A stretch of DNA of 50,229 nucleotides from positions 279,766 to 329,994 of the forward strand of contig NZ_KE387027.1 in NCBI RefSeq assembly GCF_000430045.1, read 5' to 3'. Below, in pieces: positions 22,179 to 33,523 of the stretch (position 1 is its first letter; the number at the start of each line of letters is the position of its first letter). The notes under the pieces are model-generated. The model was given only the letters and a program-made list of their open reading frames with translations. It was not told the origin of the DNA and did not search any database. A program made the translations under genes and the position numbers. Origin of the DNA: Calidithermus chliarophilus DSM 9957. Lineage in GTDB: Bacteria > Deinococcota > Deinococci > Deinococcales > Thermaceae.

Positions 22179-22230
22179 GCCTACCTCCTGTGCCGGTCTG
22201 AACTGGCCGACTCGAAGGTAGGCGGCCCCT

Positions 22231-22248
22231 GGTAACGCCAGGGTAACG
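22231..22248 (-). promoter_or_regulatory. 11-bp-period direct repeat (CGTTACC) upstream of the flavoprotein remnant
   Basis: On the minus strand CGTTACC occurs twice with an 11-base period, spacer CTGG, 53-70 bases before the start at 22178. Almost the same sequence occurs at 23474-23491. The layout resembles operators of OmpR/PhoB-type response regulators. Confidence 0.5.
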
Positions 22249-22282
22249 CGCGGGCCTGCGGCCCCTTCGGCAAGCCGCCGTG

Positions 22283-22288
22283 TAGAGT
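22283..22288 (+). promoter_or_regulatory. Putative leaderless -10 box of the M24 peptidase
   Basis: TAGAGT ends 7 bases before the ATG at 22296. No clear -35 box. Confidence 0.4.
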
Positions 22289-22295
22289 GAGGGTC

Positions 22296-23450
22296 ATGTC
22301 CGAAGCCCAGCTTTACGCGGAGAAACTGGCCCAGGCGCAGGCCTTACTGGGGCCCGGCGACCTCTGGCTGATCGCGGCGCGCGAGACCCTCGAGCGCCCC
22401 GAGCCGGGGCTGGCGCTCGTCAGCGGGGCCGACCTCACCTGGGACGCCTTCTTCCTGGTGACCCGCGACGCCGCCACGGCCATCGTGGGGCGCTTCGACG
22501 CGCCGGGCCTCGAGCCCACATGGCGGGTGCTGCCCTACGACGAGGACTACGCGGGGCTGCTGCTGCAGGAGGTGCGGGCGCTGGGGCCTCGCCACGTCTT
22601 CCTGAACTACGCCAGCGACAACCCCCTGCTGGACGGGCTGAGCTATGGGATGTACCTCGAGCTGCGCTCCGTGCTGCCCGACCTCGCCTTCGAGTCGGCG
22701 GCGGGCTTTCTCGGGCGGCTGCGCTCGGTCAAGACCCCGGCCGAGCAGCGGCGCATCAAGGCCGCCGTGGACCGCGCCGAAGAACACTTGCACGAGCTTT
22801 CCCGGGTCATCCGTCCCGGCTGGTCGGAGGCGCAGGCCGCCGAGCACCTGCACCGCAAGCTGCGGGCGGAGGGCCTGGGGCCCGCGTGGGGCTGGAAGGG
22901 CTGCCCCAACGTGAGCTTCGCCCGCATGCCCAGCCACGCCGGGGCCACCGGGGCGGTGCTGGAGCCGGGAATGCTGATCCACACCGACTACGGGGTGAGG
23001 CTGGAGGGCTACTGCTCCGACCTCCAGCGGGTGTACTACTGGCCCGAGCCGGGCCGGGGCGTGCCGGGGGAGCTCGAGGCCGCCTTCCGCACGGTGCGGG
23101 CGGCCATGGACGCGGCAGGGGAGGCCCTGCGGCCCGGGGTGAAGGGCTACGAGGTGGACGCGGCGGCCCGCCGGGTCGTGACCGCGGCCGGCTACCCCGA
23201 GTACAAGTACGCCACCGGGCACAGCCTGGGCCGCGCCACCCACGACGGGGGCACCCTGCTGGGTCCGCGCTGGCCGCGCTACGGCCAGACCCCCGAGGGC
23301 ATGGTGCAAGAGGGGGAGGTCTACACCCTCGAGCTCGGCGTGATGCTGGAGGGCGTGGGCTACGTGGGGCTCGAGGAGGACGTGGTGGTGCGGGCCCACG
23401 GTGCCGAGTGGCTCTCCCGACGGCAGGAACAGCTCTACGTGCTGGGGTAG
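22296..23450 (+). CDS. M24 family metallopeptidase (Xaa-Pro aminopeptidase-like)
   Basis: A 384-residue creatinase/prolidase-type protein. The N-terminal domain covers about 1-165; the C-terminal pita-bread domain carries the five metal ligands: Asp in HTDYGV, Asp in YCSDLQRV, His in GHSLGRATH, Glu in YTLELGV and Glu in LEEDVVV. It is expected to remove N-terminal residues before proline from peptides in the cytoplasm. ATG at 22296 preferred over the GTG at 22287 because a -10 box lies right before it. Specificity not readable. Confidence 0.88.
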   Translation: MSEAQLYAEKLAQAQALLGPGDLWLIAARETLERPEPGLALVSGADLTWDAFFLVTRDAATAIVGRFDAPGLEPTWRVLPYDEDYAGLLLQEVRALGPRHVFLNYASDNPLLDGLSYGMYLELRSVLPDLAFESAAGFLGRLRSVKTPAEQRRIKAAVDRAEEHLHELSRVIRPGWSEAQAAEHLHRKLRAEGLGPAWGWKGCPNVSFARMPSHAGATGAVLEPGMLIHTDYGVRLEGYCSDLQRVYYWPEPGRGVPGELEAAFRTVRAAMDAAGEALRPGVKGYEVDAAARRVVTAAGYPEYKYATGHSLGRATHDGGTLLGPRWPRYGQTPEGMVQEGEVYTLELGVMLEGVGYVGLEEDVVVRAHGAEWLSRRQEQLYVLG

Positions 23451-23473
23451 CCGGGCGAGCGGCTCGGCCTCCT

Positions 23474-23491
23474 CGTTACCGCGGCGTTACC
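23474..23491 (+). promoter_or_regulatory. 11-bp-period direct repeat (CGTTACC) upstream of the di-heme lipoprotein
   Basis: Two copies of CGTTACC with an 11-base period (spacer GCGG), followed by AG, 83 bases before the start at 23574. Matches the repeat at 22231-22248 at 18 of 20 positions when that one is read on its minus strand. Confidence 0.55.
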
Positions 23492-23573
23492 AGCCTTTCC
23501 CTAACCTCGAGGCCTCAGAGGAGCAACACGTCCTTCGGGCATTCGGGTCCATCAGGGAAAGGAGCACACGCGC

Positions 23574-25970
23574 ATGAGAATTCCCATGGTTCAACGGGGG
23601 CGGCCCCTGGCAGGTGCGGGGCTGCTGCTTCTGGCCTCGCTGCTGGCGGGCTGCCCGTCGCAGGAGAAGCCGCCGCCCGCCAACGTCCCCGTCCTCAAGC
23701 GGCCCTCCAAGGCGGGCACCATCGCCATCACCGGCGACGACAAGCGGGTGCTGGTGGTCAACCCCGAGAACGACTCGCTCTCCGTCATCGACACCGCCAG
23801 CGACGCCGAGGTCGCGGAGGTGCCGGTGGGGGACGAGCCCAGCGCCGTGGTGATCGCCCCGGACGACAAGGTGGCCTACGTGGCGCTCAAGGCCGAGGCG
23901 CGGGTGGTGCGGGTGGTGGGGATCGACGGCTCGAGCCCCGCCGTCAGCGGCTCGGTGGCGGTGGGGTCGGAGCCGGTGGGCCTCGCCCTCTCCCCGCGCG
24001 GCGACCGGCTGGTGGTGGCCGAGTGGGCCGAGGGCCGGGTGGCGCTCGTCGACACCAAGACCCTCAGCGTCGTCGCCTCCAAAGCCGTCCCCAACCCGCG
24101 CGGCCTCGCCGTCTCCAACAACGGCGACCAGAGCGACGCCGACGAGAAGGTGGTGGTCACCGAGTTCTACGGGCGGCCCGGCCCCGGCCCCGAGGCCAGC
24201 GACACCAGCCGCACCGGCGCGGTGCGCGTCCTCAAGCTGGGCGACCTCTCCGAAGTAGCCACCGTGCTCTTCGAGCCCACCGCCACCGGCGACGCGGGTT
24301 TCCCGGCCCAGACCACCTCGCCCAACCAGCTCTACTCGGTGGCCGTCGCGGGCAACAAGTTCTTCGCCACCGCCATCGGCGCCTCGCCCGACGGGGCCCC
24401 GGTCTTCAACGGCAACGTCTTCCCGCTGGTGCTGGTGGGCGACCTCGGCGGCAACAAGCTCGGCAGCATCAGCCTGGCGGCGGCCATCAAGCAGCAGGTG
24501 AGCGCCCCCCGCCTCTTCATGGCCGACCTGGTGGACGTGGCGCTGGTGGGCAGCGACATCCTCTACCTCGTGGCCCGCGGCGCCGACGCGGTGCAGCGCG
24601 CGGTGCTCACCAGCGACACCACCGTGAGCCTGGGCACCCCCACCGTCAAGCAGCTCGACCTGCTCGCCAACGCCAACAACACCGGCTGCCAGGCGCCCAT
24701 CGGCATGGTCACGCCCCACGACACCTCCCAGACCACCAAGGCCTACGTCAACTGCTGGGTGAGCCGCACCGCCACCGTCGTCGCGCTCGACAGCCAGACC
24801 CCCAGCAAGAAGATCGCCACGGGGGCCGCGCCGGCGGGCCTCGAGGCCCAGGTCAACAAGGGCCGCCGCTTCTTCTTCACGGGCCGGGCCCGCTGGGCCA
24901 ACGAGGCCTGGTCGAGCTGCGGCTCCTGCCACAGCGACGGCCTCTCCGACAACGTCACCTGGCGCTTCGCCGCCGGGCCGCGCCAGAGCACCGACATGAG
25001 CGGCACCTTCAGCCACGGGCCCGGGCCGCAGAAACAGCGTATCCTCAACTGGACGGGCATCTTCGACGAACTCCACGACTTCGAGCGCAACACCCGCGGG
25101 GTCTCGGGCGGCAAGGGGGCCATCACCACCGACAACTGCGGCAACTTCGCCCCCGAGGACCAGGGCGGCGAGAAGCAGGCCAGCCTCAACCCCGCCGACG
25201 CCACCGACAAGAACGGTATCAAGGTCCAGCTCGGCATCCCGGTGCGCGAGATCCAGGACGCGCTGGGCGCGGCGCTGTGCACGGTGCAGCTCACCGGTGG
25301 CAAGGACTGGGACGACATCGAGGAGTTCGTCAAGACCATCCGCCCGCCCAAGGGCAAGCAGTTCCTCGACGCCGGCTCGGTGGCGCGGGGCCGCGCCCTG
25401 TTCGAGCAGACCGGCCAGGGCAGCTGCGCCTCCTGCCACGGCGGTCCCGGCTGGACGCTGTCGCGGCTGTTCTACACCCCCTCGAGCACCAACAACGCCA
25501 ACCTCGCCAACACCCCCTTCAGCGCCCCCGGCAGCCCCCACACCAAGCAGATCGAGCAGGAGCCCAAGGCGGGCGGCGGCTTCGTCGCCCCGGCCCAGGT
25601 GTCGTGCGTGCTGCGCAACGTGGGCAGCTTCGGGGTCCCGGGCAACGCCGCCGAGACGGACGCGCTCGAGAAAAAAGCGGGCAACCCCCCCACCGACCGC
25701 GCCCAGGGCGAGTTCGCCGGCTACAACATCCCCTCGCTCTACGGCCTCGCCCTGGGAGCCCCCTACCTGCACCACGGCCAGGCCAAGACCCTCGCCGAGC
25801 TCTTCACCGACCCCAAGTGGAGCGTGCACCTGCGCGCGGGCAACGCGGTCTTCACCCCTAGCGCCGGGCAGATCCAGGACCTCGCCAACTTCCTGCTCTC
25901 CATCGACGCCGCCACGCCCGAGGCCGCCGTGCCCGGCGGGGCCGACCAGTGCCTCATCAGCTTCCCCTGA
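23574..25970 (+). CDS. Di-heme c-type lipoprotein with beta-propeller (YVTN-like) domain
   Basis: A 798-residue exported protein. Lipoprotein signal with lipobox LLAG-C27. Residues about 45-400 contain repeated propeller strands (VLVVNPENDSLSVIDTAS, AVVIAPDDKVAYVALKA, GLALSPRGDRLVVAEW). The C-terminal part has two haem c motifs, CGSCH (449-453) and CASCH (618-622), in a layout like the MauG/cytochrome c peroxidase group (HSDGLSDNVTW after the first). Likely an electron-transfer or peroxidase-type protein anchored on the cell surface. Preceded by the CGTTACC direct repeat, followed by a terminator. Partner and substrate are unknown. Confidence 0.85.
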   Translation: MRIPMVQRGRPLAGAGLLLLASLLAGCPSQEKPPPANVPVLKRPSKAGTIAITGDDKRVLVVNPENDSLSVIDTASDAEVAEVPVGDEPSAVVIAPDDKVAYVALKAEARVVRVVGIDGSSPAVSGSVAVGSEPVGLALSPRGDRLVVAEWAEGRVALVDTKTLSVVASKAVPNPRGLAVSNNGDQSDADEKVVVTEFYGRPGPGPEASDTSRTGAVRVLKLGDLSEVATVLFEPTATGDAGFPAQTTSPNQLYSVAVAGNKFFATAIGASPDGAPVFNGNVFPLVLVGDLGGNKLGSISLAAAIKQQVSAPRLFMADLVDVALVGSDILYLVARGADAVQRAVLTSDTTVSLGTPTVKQLDLLANANNTGCQAPIGMVTPHDTSQTTKAYVNCWVSRTATVVALDSQTPSKKIATGAAPAGLEAQVNKGRRFFFTGRARWANEAWSSCGSCHSDGLSDNVTWRFAAGPRQSTDMSGTFSHGPGPQKQRILNWTGIFDELHDFERNTRGVSGGKGAITTDNCGNFAPEDQGGEKQASLNPADATDKNGIKVQLGIPVREIQDALGAALCTVQLTGGKDWDDIEEFVKTIRPPKGKQFLDAGSVARGRALFEQTGQGSCASCHGGPGWTLSRLFYTPSSTNNANLANTPFSAPGSPHTKQIEQEPKAGGGFVAPAQVSCVLRNVGSFGVPGNAAETDALEKKAGNPPTDRAQGEFAGYNIPSLYGLALGAPYLHHGQAKTLAELFTDPKWSVHLRAGNAVFTPSAGQIQDLANFLLSIDAATPEAAVPGGADQCLISFP

Positions 25971-32105: not shown

Positions 32106-33461
32106 TCAGGCCGTGGGCGCCTGCCGGGGGCCGGGGGGCCGGGCCGCGGCGCCGTGCGGTTTGAGGTTGCCCCACAGTACCCGCAAGGCCAGCTTCGGGG
32201 CAAGCAGGCTGGGCGGCGGGGCCATCAGGTTGGCGACCTTCTGGAAGGCCAGCACTAGCGCGCGGTCGCGGCGGGCGGCGACGTGCAGCCGGGCGACGTA
32301 CCAGTTGACGAAGCTCACCACCGGGCCGCGCGGCCCCCGCACCTGCGGGTAGCGCAGGTCGGCCCCCACCGCGATGCTCCAGGGGCTGTCCACCAGGGCG
32401 GCGGCTTCGCGGAAGAAGCGCCGCGCCAGGTTCTTGGTCCCGGCCTCGAGGCACCGCGCGAGCGCCTTGGCCTCGGCGGCGGCCACCGTCATGCCCTGGC
32501 CGAAGACCGGGTTGAAGCTGCACAGGGCGTCGCCCGTGACCAAAAAGCCCTCCGGGAAGCGCGCCAGCCGCTCGTAGCGCCGGCGCTGGCTGCCGGGGAA
32601 TTTGTAGGGCACGATCCCGGAGAGCGGCTCGGCGTCCTTGACCAGCTCGTAGACGTCGGGCACCGGGAGGCTGCGGGCGAACTCGAGGAAGCCCGCCTCG
32701 TCGGTGGGCGGGTGGTCGCCCAGGAAACCCGCCAGGGTCACCACCCAGCGGTCGCCCTCCATGCCCAGCACCACCCCGCCCCGCGCCTCGGGCGCGTTGG
32801 AGCCGATGACGAAGGCGTCGTTGCCCCCCAGGTCCTGCGGGCGGCGGCGGTAGACGCGGGTGGCGTAGGCCAGGTCGATCCGCACCAACTCCTCGGCCGG
32901 GCGCTCGTAGCCCAGGGCCTCGAGCCACTTCGGCGCCTGCGAGCCGCGCCCGCTGGCGTCCACCACCAGATCGGCCCGGAGGTCGCTGAGGCCCTCGTCG
33001 TCGAGCCGCACCCCCGTCACGTGCCCGCCCCCGCCCAGCAGGCCCCGCACGCTCACGCCGGTCAGGGCCCGCACGCCCGGCAGGGCCAGCACCCGCCCGC
33101 GGACGTAGCCCTCCAGCAGGGGGCGGCTCAGCAGCAGGCCCATCAGCCCGCTGGGGAACTGGGCGTGGAACCCGCCGTTCTGGTACCAGCGCGCGCCCTC
33201 GACGATGTCGCCCTCCTTGGCCCCCTGCGCCACCAGGTCGCGGGTGAGGCCGGGGAAGAACTCCTCCAGCACCGCGCGGCCCTGGGCCAGCAGCCCGTGG
33301 GCGTGGCGGCCCTGCGGCACGCCCTTGCGGTGCTCGCCCACGGCGGGGAAGTGGTCGCGCTCGAGCACCGTCACCTCTTCGTAGTGGTCGGCCAGCGCCC
33401 GCGCCGCCAGCAGCCCGCCCATGCTCCCGCCGATCACGACGGCTCGTTTTCCCTGGTGCAT
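32106..33461 (-). CDS. FAD-dependent oxidoreductase/monooxygenase (full-length paralogue)
   Basis: A 451-residue flavoprotein of the PHBH/geranylgeranyl-reductase type. N-terminal dinucleotide-binding region VVIGGSMGGLLAARALADHYEEVTVLERD, then GEHRKGVPQGRHAHGLLA, VVDASGRGSQ (S at 170), and the second FAD motif VTGDALCSFNPVFGQGM (GDA at 310-312). Likely hydroxylates or reduces a hydrophobic substrate; downstream SRPBCC and GNAT genes suggest small-molecule tailoring. ATG at 33461 has AGGAGGAG upstream. A shortened paralogue lies at 21447-22178. Confidence 0.88.
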   Translation of the reverse strand: MHQGKRAVVIGGSMGGLLAARALADHYEEVTVLERDHFPAVGEHRKGVPQGRHAHGLLAQGRAVLEEFFPGLTRDLVAQGAKEGDIVEGARWYQNGGFHAQFPSGLMGLLLSRPLLEGYVRGRVLALPGVRALTGVSVRGLLGGGGHVTGVRLDDEGLSDLRADLVVDASGRGSQAPKWLEALGYERPAEELVRIDLAYATRVYRRRPQDLGGNDAFVIGSNAPEARGGVVLGMEGDRWVVTLAGFLGDHPPTDEAGFLEFARSLPVPDVYELVKDAEPLSGIVPYKFPGSQRRRYERLARFPEGFLVTGDALCSFNPVFGQGMTVAAAEAKALARCLEAGTKNLARRFFREAAALVDSPWSIAVGADLRYPQVRGPRGPVVSFVNWYVARLHVAARRDRALVLAFQKVANLMAPPPSLLAPKLALRVLWGNLKPHGAAARPPGPRQAPTA

Positions 33462-33501
33462 ACGCTCCTCCTGGTGTTGCTGGGAGCAGTGTGCAAGGGG
33501 A

Positions 33502-33523
33502 GGCGTGAAAAGGGCGTAAAAAG
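33502..33523. promoter_or_regulatory. 11-bp-period direct repeat between flavoprotein and histidine phosphatase genes
   Basis: GGCGTGAAAAG followed directly by GGCGTAAAAAG (10 of 11 identical), period 11, lying between two divergent starts. Layout as for OmpR/PhoB-type operators; sequence differs from the CGTTACC repeats. Confidence 0.45.

Follow-up and report, generated by a model that had tools for sequence, protein, structure and literature searches.

Tandem CGTTACC repeats one helical turn apart: promoter elements scattered over a 4.69-Mb genome and candidate operators of a SARP-type activator

The window analyzed here is the whole stretch of 50,229 nucleotides at C7:279766-329994 of a 4.69-Mb genome, designated G000, presumably of a Thermaceae-like member of Deinococcota. 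It contains two direct repeats of the heptamer CGTTACC, one preceding the remnant of a flavoprotein gene and the other preceding the gene of a di-haem lipoprotein (Table 1). Genes were called with our own codon-usage script, and start positions are rough; the lipoprotein, whose translation reads a lipobox-like LLAGC, may start at the ATG at 23586. The intact paralogue of the flavoprotein is itself preceded by a pair of hexamers, followed after 10 bp by CACACT (33488-33493, minus strand). This arrangement has the same layout as the CGTTACC sites with a different half-site, and is given as a lead only.

Table 1. Genes, repeats, and putative -10 hexamers in the window (window coordinates)
Feature	Position	Strand	Basis or remark
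FAD-dependent oxidoreductase remnant, 243 aa	21447..22178	-	Lacks internal stretches of the 451-aa paralogue
Putative -10 hexamer TACCTT, 10 bp past the second repeat of operator 1	22215..22220	-	Read from sequence
Operator 1, CGTTACC-CTGG-CGTTACC, 11-bp direct repeat	22231..22248	-	Sequence, pattern search, flank scan
Operator 2, CGTTACC-GCGG-CGTTACC, 11-bp direct repeat	23474..23491	+	Sequence, pattern search, flank scan
Putative -10 hexamer TAACCT, 10 bp past the second repeat of operator 2	23502..23507	+	Read from sequence
Di-haem lipoprotein, N-terminal beta-propeller and two CxxCH haem motifs	23574..25970	+	Weak matches to di-haem peroxidase and MbnH families
Intact 451-aa flavoprotein paralogue	32106-33461	-	Alignment to remnant
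TTTACG-CCCTT-TTCACG before the intact paralogue (lead)	33504..33520	-	Hand-counted from start codon

The original prediction placed two almost identical copies of CGTTACC-N4-CGTTACC in this region, and both are there: each has no mismatch to the pattern CGTTACCNNGGCGTTACC, and by eye CGTTACC-CTGG-CGTTACC-AG and CGTTACC-GCGG-CGTTACC-AG share 18 of 20 bases. The window by itself is weak evidence for the repeats. When up to three mismatches are allowed, it holds two matches to CGTTACCNNGGCGTTACC against 0.35 expected, and 5 of 100 shuffled windows also reach two, a point in favor of chance, or of a repressor site or other element without this promoter role. The genome-wide count is not weak. Across G000, CGTTACC-N4-CGTTACC with up to two mismatches occurs 18 times (reversed control, 1), and exact TTACC-N6-TTACC occurs 14 times (control, 0). 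Additional upstream copies are thus present beyond the window, as the original prediction required, and the observation is correct, with a better case than was first made for it.

The 18 sites also show a favored distance to a -10-like hexamer. With distances of 0-29 bp past the second repeat scanned in the CGTTACC direction, TAnnnT lies exactly 10 bp downstream in five sites (both window sites, C3:572960, C3:18437, and C7:344556), and the lone other TAnnnT lies at 5 bp in a single site. In the opposite direction, TAnnnT occurs at 9 bp in three sites and at 10, 22, and 23 bp in one site each; half of the sites (9/18) have none at 9 or 10 bp in either direction. At the frequency with which TAnnnT occurs in the flanks, finding five of 18 at one position has a probability of about 2e-7. 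Because the 10-bp distance was first spotted by eye in the same sites, the fairer figure is the one that excludes the two window sites (3/16, P about 2e-4). The favored distance implies that at least some repeats span roughly -40 to -23, where an activator replacing the -35 contact would bind, and the CGTTACC repeats are inferred to be an activator-type promoter element. Both the genome-wide enrichment and the distance argue against chance or an element without this promoter role, which is highly improbable. Both window copies are genuine promoter elements, belonging to a set scattered over G000.

The genes behind the GTTACC sites of G000 are varied. They comprise the flavoprotein remnant, the di-haem lipoprotein, hemA (behind a third site at C7:344540-344572, minus strand), an EamA-type transporter whose site has a degenerate second repeat, an exported protein, and a protein without a Pfam match. 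The last, behind C3:572961, has a paralogue (64% identical over 236 aa) that follows a mixed GTTACC/GTAACG site at C3:2091553. The suggested regulon linking flavin and haem proteins is, on this evidence, suggestive only. A haem link among the targets has some support from hemA and the di-haem lipoprotein, but the flavin side consists of one broken gene and the other sites precede unrelated genes; a flavin-haem regulon is not established. None of the other 49 genomes of the family yielded a full-length relative of this lipoprotein, and its relatives (53 loci) belong mostly to Myxococcota/Deltaproteobacteria and Deinococcales MAGs; for these two reasons, the gene may have been acquired. No repeat was found at three Deinococcales promoters of such relatives, and none was reported at the other 50 loci by a crude scan of a fixed stretch that covered the upstream side in some but not all of them.

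The 14 exact sites divide into two kinds. Seven contain at least one ATTACC, which reads GGTAAT on the other strand, and seven contain GTTACC twice. Promoters of the GGTAAY kind were sought in 50 family genomes with the pattern GKTAMY-N5-GKTAMY-N11-AnnnT and were found in 15 (G000, G001, G009, G011, G021, G022, G024-G027, G029, G030, and G032-G034). This count of 15 with and 35 without leaves out an identical repeat (GGTAATTTCCC...) in G001, G004, G007, G009, G011, G023, and G030, which lies within a called ABC-transporter gene in G001 and G004 and was judged coding by identity in the other five genomes, as well as non-GGTAAY matches in G000, G002, G003, G005, G022, G032, and G054. A SARP-type protein, L023:11956-12786, has a BTAD match (E 3.8e-14) and an OmpR-type C-terminal domain (E 0.00095, below the Pfam cut-off). 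Close relatives of this protein (E 9.8e-39 or lower) occur in exactly the 15 genomes with GGTAAY promoters, and the best match in the remaining 35 is 4.9e-16 or weaker, or absent. Once the repeat judged coding is dropped, the promoter therefore occurs in 15/15 genomes with the SARP and 0/35 without it. The corresponding chance of 4.4e-13 assumes independent genomes and, because the genomes are related, overstates their independence; within the genus that contributes 18 of the 50 genomes (13 with, 5 without), the chance is still 1 in 8568. In 14 of the 15 genomes, the SARP gene has a GGTAAY site no more than 5 kb away, the exception being G021.

GGTAAY sites stand mostly at stress genes. In G000, the genes that follow them include those of Hsp20, a MalK-like ABC ATPase, two universal stress proteins, and a phosphoribosyltransferase with a hemerythrin next in line; in G022, the genes identified by eye include ferredoxin, P-type ATPases, and a universal stress protein. 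A set of Hsp20, universal stress proteins, P-type ATPases, and ferredoxin recalls the mycobacterial dormancy (DosR) set, although the class of regulator is different. Promoters of this kind can be seen at L023:6808-7822, L071:13167, and L375 and L376 (G022:C113).

A single regulon for all 14 exact sites was considered and rejected because the GGTAAY and GTTACC kinds differ in their distribution among genomes. It is also conceivable that the SARP of the GGTAAY sites reads the GTTACC sites in the other direction: CGTTACC is the reverse complement of GGTAACG, GTnAC is nearly palindromic and a site could thus serve either direction, the hexamer lies 10 bp before the -10 in both kinds, and the mixed site at C3:2091553 precedes a paralogue of a gene behind a GTTACC site. 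However, the 14 other genomes that have this SARP and GGTAAY sites lack a GTTACC-N5-GTTACC-N10-YAnnnT promoter, and a sigma contact of the type described for AfsR would imply one orientation. One protein serving both kinds is thus improbable.

Proteins with the same domain architecture are numerous in G000. There are 20 BTAD matches, of which about 18 are convincing; the doubtful ones are C3:2596114, inside a TPR/cytochrome c protein, and C7:717935, where the called gene has no BTAD and the genome match contains an internal stop. Near 19 of these matches (the twentieth, in L023, was scanned separately), 50 kb of intergenic sequence holds 12 promoters with period 11 and TAnnnT at 10 bp, distributed over eight neighborhoods, as compared with nine in 176 kb elsewhere. 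Control periods of 9, 10, 12, and 13 give 1, 1, 0, and 1 near BTAD matches and 2, 0, 5, and 0 elsewhere, the five at period 12 being a point against a SARP-type reading. One of the 12 promoters is a GTTACC site and one lies near the doubtful C7:717935, and the comparison is partly post hoc because it was framed after the earlier scan of L023 had been seen. The half-sites differ between BTAD loci (GTCACA, CTAACG, GTCATC, GTAACG, and others).

The spacing itself recurs in larger samples. Among exact hexamer repeats before TAnnnT in a systematic 800-kb sample, with tandem arrays of period 7 and 14 set aside, period 11 is commonest, giving six at 10 bp and six at 11 bp against 0-2 each for periods 8, 9, 10, 12, and 13 at these two distances; at other distances, period 11 gives four or five up to 14 bp and three or four at 5-6 bp. 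This contrast is lost in a looser scan (repeats agreeing at six of seven positions, YAnnnT), in which period 11 at 10 bp gives 15 and the off-period mean is 10.3, with a maximum of 47 from tandem arrays, and this also weighs against a SARP-type operator.

Within G000, the wider pattern GTWACS-N5-GTWACS-N10-TAnnnT with one mismatch has 24 matches against one in the control, and two sites of this kind precede a small SARP gene at C7:70.6-71.4 kb, at 86 and 408 bp. This small SARP is the best candidate regulator in G000, albeit unproved. Other candidates, none of them proved, are the TPR-wHTH-BTAD-like proteins at C8:15129, C3:2727070, and C3:2899974. An attempt to name the regulator of the GTTACC sites from its recognition helix allowed no choice.

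Of 111 genomes of the phylum, three have GTTACC-N5-GTTACC-N10-YAnnnT: G000 (five sites), G005 (one), and G083 (one). In searched stretches of eight other genomes, GTTACC pairs were found at nine places (two in G004 and one each in G005, G009, G012, G017, G018, G020, and G083), with TAnnnT at 10 bp in G005 and G083 alone. The sole pair of G005 heads a run of genes (radical SAM protein, ABC transporter) that also includes, 3.3 kb further on, a TPR-wHTH-BTAD-like regulator. In G018, four tandem CGTTACC/T units start about 175 bp past the end of a TPR-wHTH-BTAD-like gene. The G005 protein, with a C-terminal winged helix and a BTAD-like part, is 38% identical to that of G018, in which Pfam calls no BTAD and the kinship to SARPs is one of alignment. 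Such a regulator is present at two of the seven places searched (G005 and G018), the 3-kb loci L042 and L057 falling outside the count. Against a link between this subfamily and the repeats, it also occurs in G001 and G011, which lack GTTACC-N5-GTTACC-N10-YAnnnT, and the best homologue of the G018 regulator in G000 (C8:15129-16646) has no GTTACC site nearby. The G005 genome also contains two paralogous TPR-wHTH-BTAD-like genes (L274:12568 and L275:3704), each directly followed by CGTAACC-TGGA-CGTAACC with TACCCT 10 bp on. The G083 site (L222, G083:C44:6928-6960) precedes a gene named by eye as tail-sheath-like; contractile-tail sheath-like genes, by eye, stand behind both this GTTACC site and a GTAACG site, L314 (G000:C3:1036999-1037031).

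The original prediction assigned the repeats to a two-component response regulator of the OmpR/PhoB family. The part that is supported is the geometry, an operator whose two half-sites are spaced by one helical turn, as is typical of those bound by OmpR-type winged helices; PhoB-like control of phosphate genes is not supported. Response regulators of the PhoB/PhoP type (Streptomyces PHO box, GTTCACC) and GlnR have an OmpR-type winged helix, and GTTCACC and GlnR boxes are 11-bp direct repeats, so that both the DNA-binding fold and the spacing are the same. Elsewhere, a GTTACC-N5-GTTACC pair in G017 (G017:C4, L083:4651-4667), lacking TAnnnT at 10 bp, lies 31 bp before a Response_reg/Trans_reg_C gene, which also tells against a SARP as the reader. 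In G001 and G004 (L066:4324, G001:C97; L078:3850, G004:C8), CTTTACC-N4-CTTTACC stands just upstream of OmpR-type response regulator genes whose products are 92% identical, with a -10-like hexamer 9 bp downstream of the repeat. In G000, however, none of the 14 exact sites is within 5 kb of any of the 13 non-BTAD Trans_reg_C matches, and these 13 loci have no GTTACC pair with TAnnnT. The expected clustering at phosphate genes was not seen either, as no phosphate or nitrogen gene was recognized downstream of the annotated sites (mostly by eye, some by Pfam). A pho box was rejected as a candidate for these reasons, a phosphate regulon is not shown, and a response regulator as the reader of the repeats, the leading alternative to a SARP, is rather unlikely.

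SARP activators are familiar chiefly from actinomycetes, as switches for antibiotics. The CGTTACC sites resemble the operators of this family (AfsR and its afs box, and the ActII-ORF4 and DnrI type) in that 11-bp direct repeats cover the -35 region at a favored distance from the -10, and wHTH-BTAD proteins are both numerous in G000 and found near such repeats. At published SARP sites, direct repeats recur at 11 or 22 bp, the last lying 8 bp from the -10 (PMC10936776, PMC10972967). AfsR units read CGTT(T/C)ATCGNN (PMC10972967) and occupy -40 to -30 and -29 to -19 (PMC10936776), with Arg92 of the recognition helix contacting T-38 and T-27 (PMC10936776, PMC10972967). At afsS, AfsR and PhoP have a common binding sequence (PMC10972967). 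The CGTTACC unit likewise begins with CGTT. The gap between heptamer and -10 is 10 bp in the G000 sites, in contrast to the 8 bp reported for SARP heptamers, a difference that perhaps reflects how the unit is cut; the 17 bp from the start of the CGTTACC unit to the -10 would match the AfsR register if the -10 hexamer is taken as -12 to -7.

Several features set the present system apart from these SARPs. The host is presumably not an actinomycete, several kinds of half-site occur in one genome, and the sister GGTAAY sites lie at stress genes rather than in an antibiotic cluster. At E ≤ 0.01, the sole PDB match to the SARP L023:11956-12786 is EmbR (PDB 2fez; residues 6-248 of 277), a weak match (E 0.006) to a protein that has an extra FHA domain. 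A SARP response regulator of Deinococcus deserti is described in the literature, and a search of open-licence paper listings found no SARP/BTAD regulon of the present kind in Thermus, Meiothermus, or Deinococcota.

Geometry and linked regulators together favor a SARP (wHTH-BTAD) over PhoB-like control, and we consider it somewhat probable that the CGTTACC repeats are SARP/AfsR-like activator operators read by a wHTH-BTAD protein of G000, for which candidates exist. On this model, the repeats would be operators of a winged-helix activator of the OmpR type that binds as two adjacent protomers, one on each 11-bp unit, the units beginning near -40 and -29. The bound protomers would make up for the lack of a good -35 element and keep RNA polymerase on the -10 hexamer, which lies 17 bp from where the downstream unit begins; SARP activators work in this manner, AfsR on the afs box among them. 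The reader of the GTTACC operator would likely be one of the SARP-type wHTH-BTAD proteins of G000. Activation, dimer binding, and the family of the regulator of the GTTACC operator are here inferred.

More broadly, and more tentatively, this lineage may possess promoter "dialects" of the SARP type, in which close to 20 wHTH-BTAD activators each have their own tandem half-site (GTTACC, GGTAAY, GTAACG, GTCACA, CTAACG, GTCATC, and so on) at the same place before the -10, half-site and recognition helix co-varying; CGTTACC would then be a dialect that G000 gained recently. A CTAACG repeat lies near both C3:577427 and C3:873645, which are separate loci whose BTAD proteins have near-identical helices (NNLRQALFxLRR). 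A GTCACA repeat lies near C3:488479 and C3:481529 (helix NNMRQLLRRLR), which count once because they share one neighborhood, and no such repeat was found near C3:796285, which has a similar helix. BTAD paralogues of this sort provide material for reading how the SARP recognition helix selects its half-site. The co-occurrence of operator and regulator over 50 genomes suggests that the SARP promoter design serves stress and accessory genes outside actinomycetes, and provides a directly testable regulon; for the CGTTACC repeats, the guessed haem-flavin regulon gives way to a testable activator class. A further locus of G000, L178 (G000:C3:2500-12500), combines a small peptide gene, an MFS-like exporter (by eye), a TPR-BTAD regulator, and a TCAATAC/GCAATAC repeat promoter, and may be a ribosomal-peptide locus.
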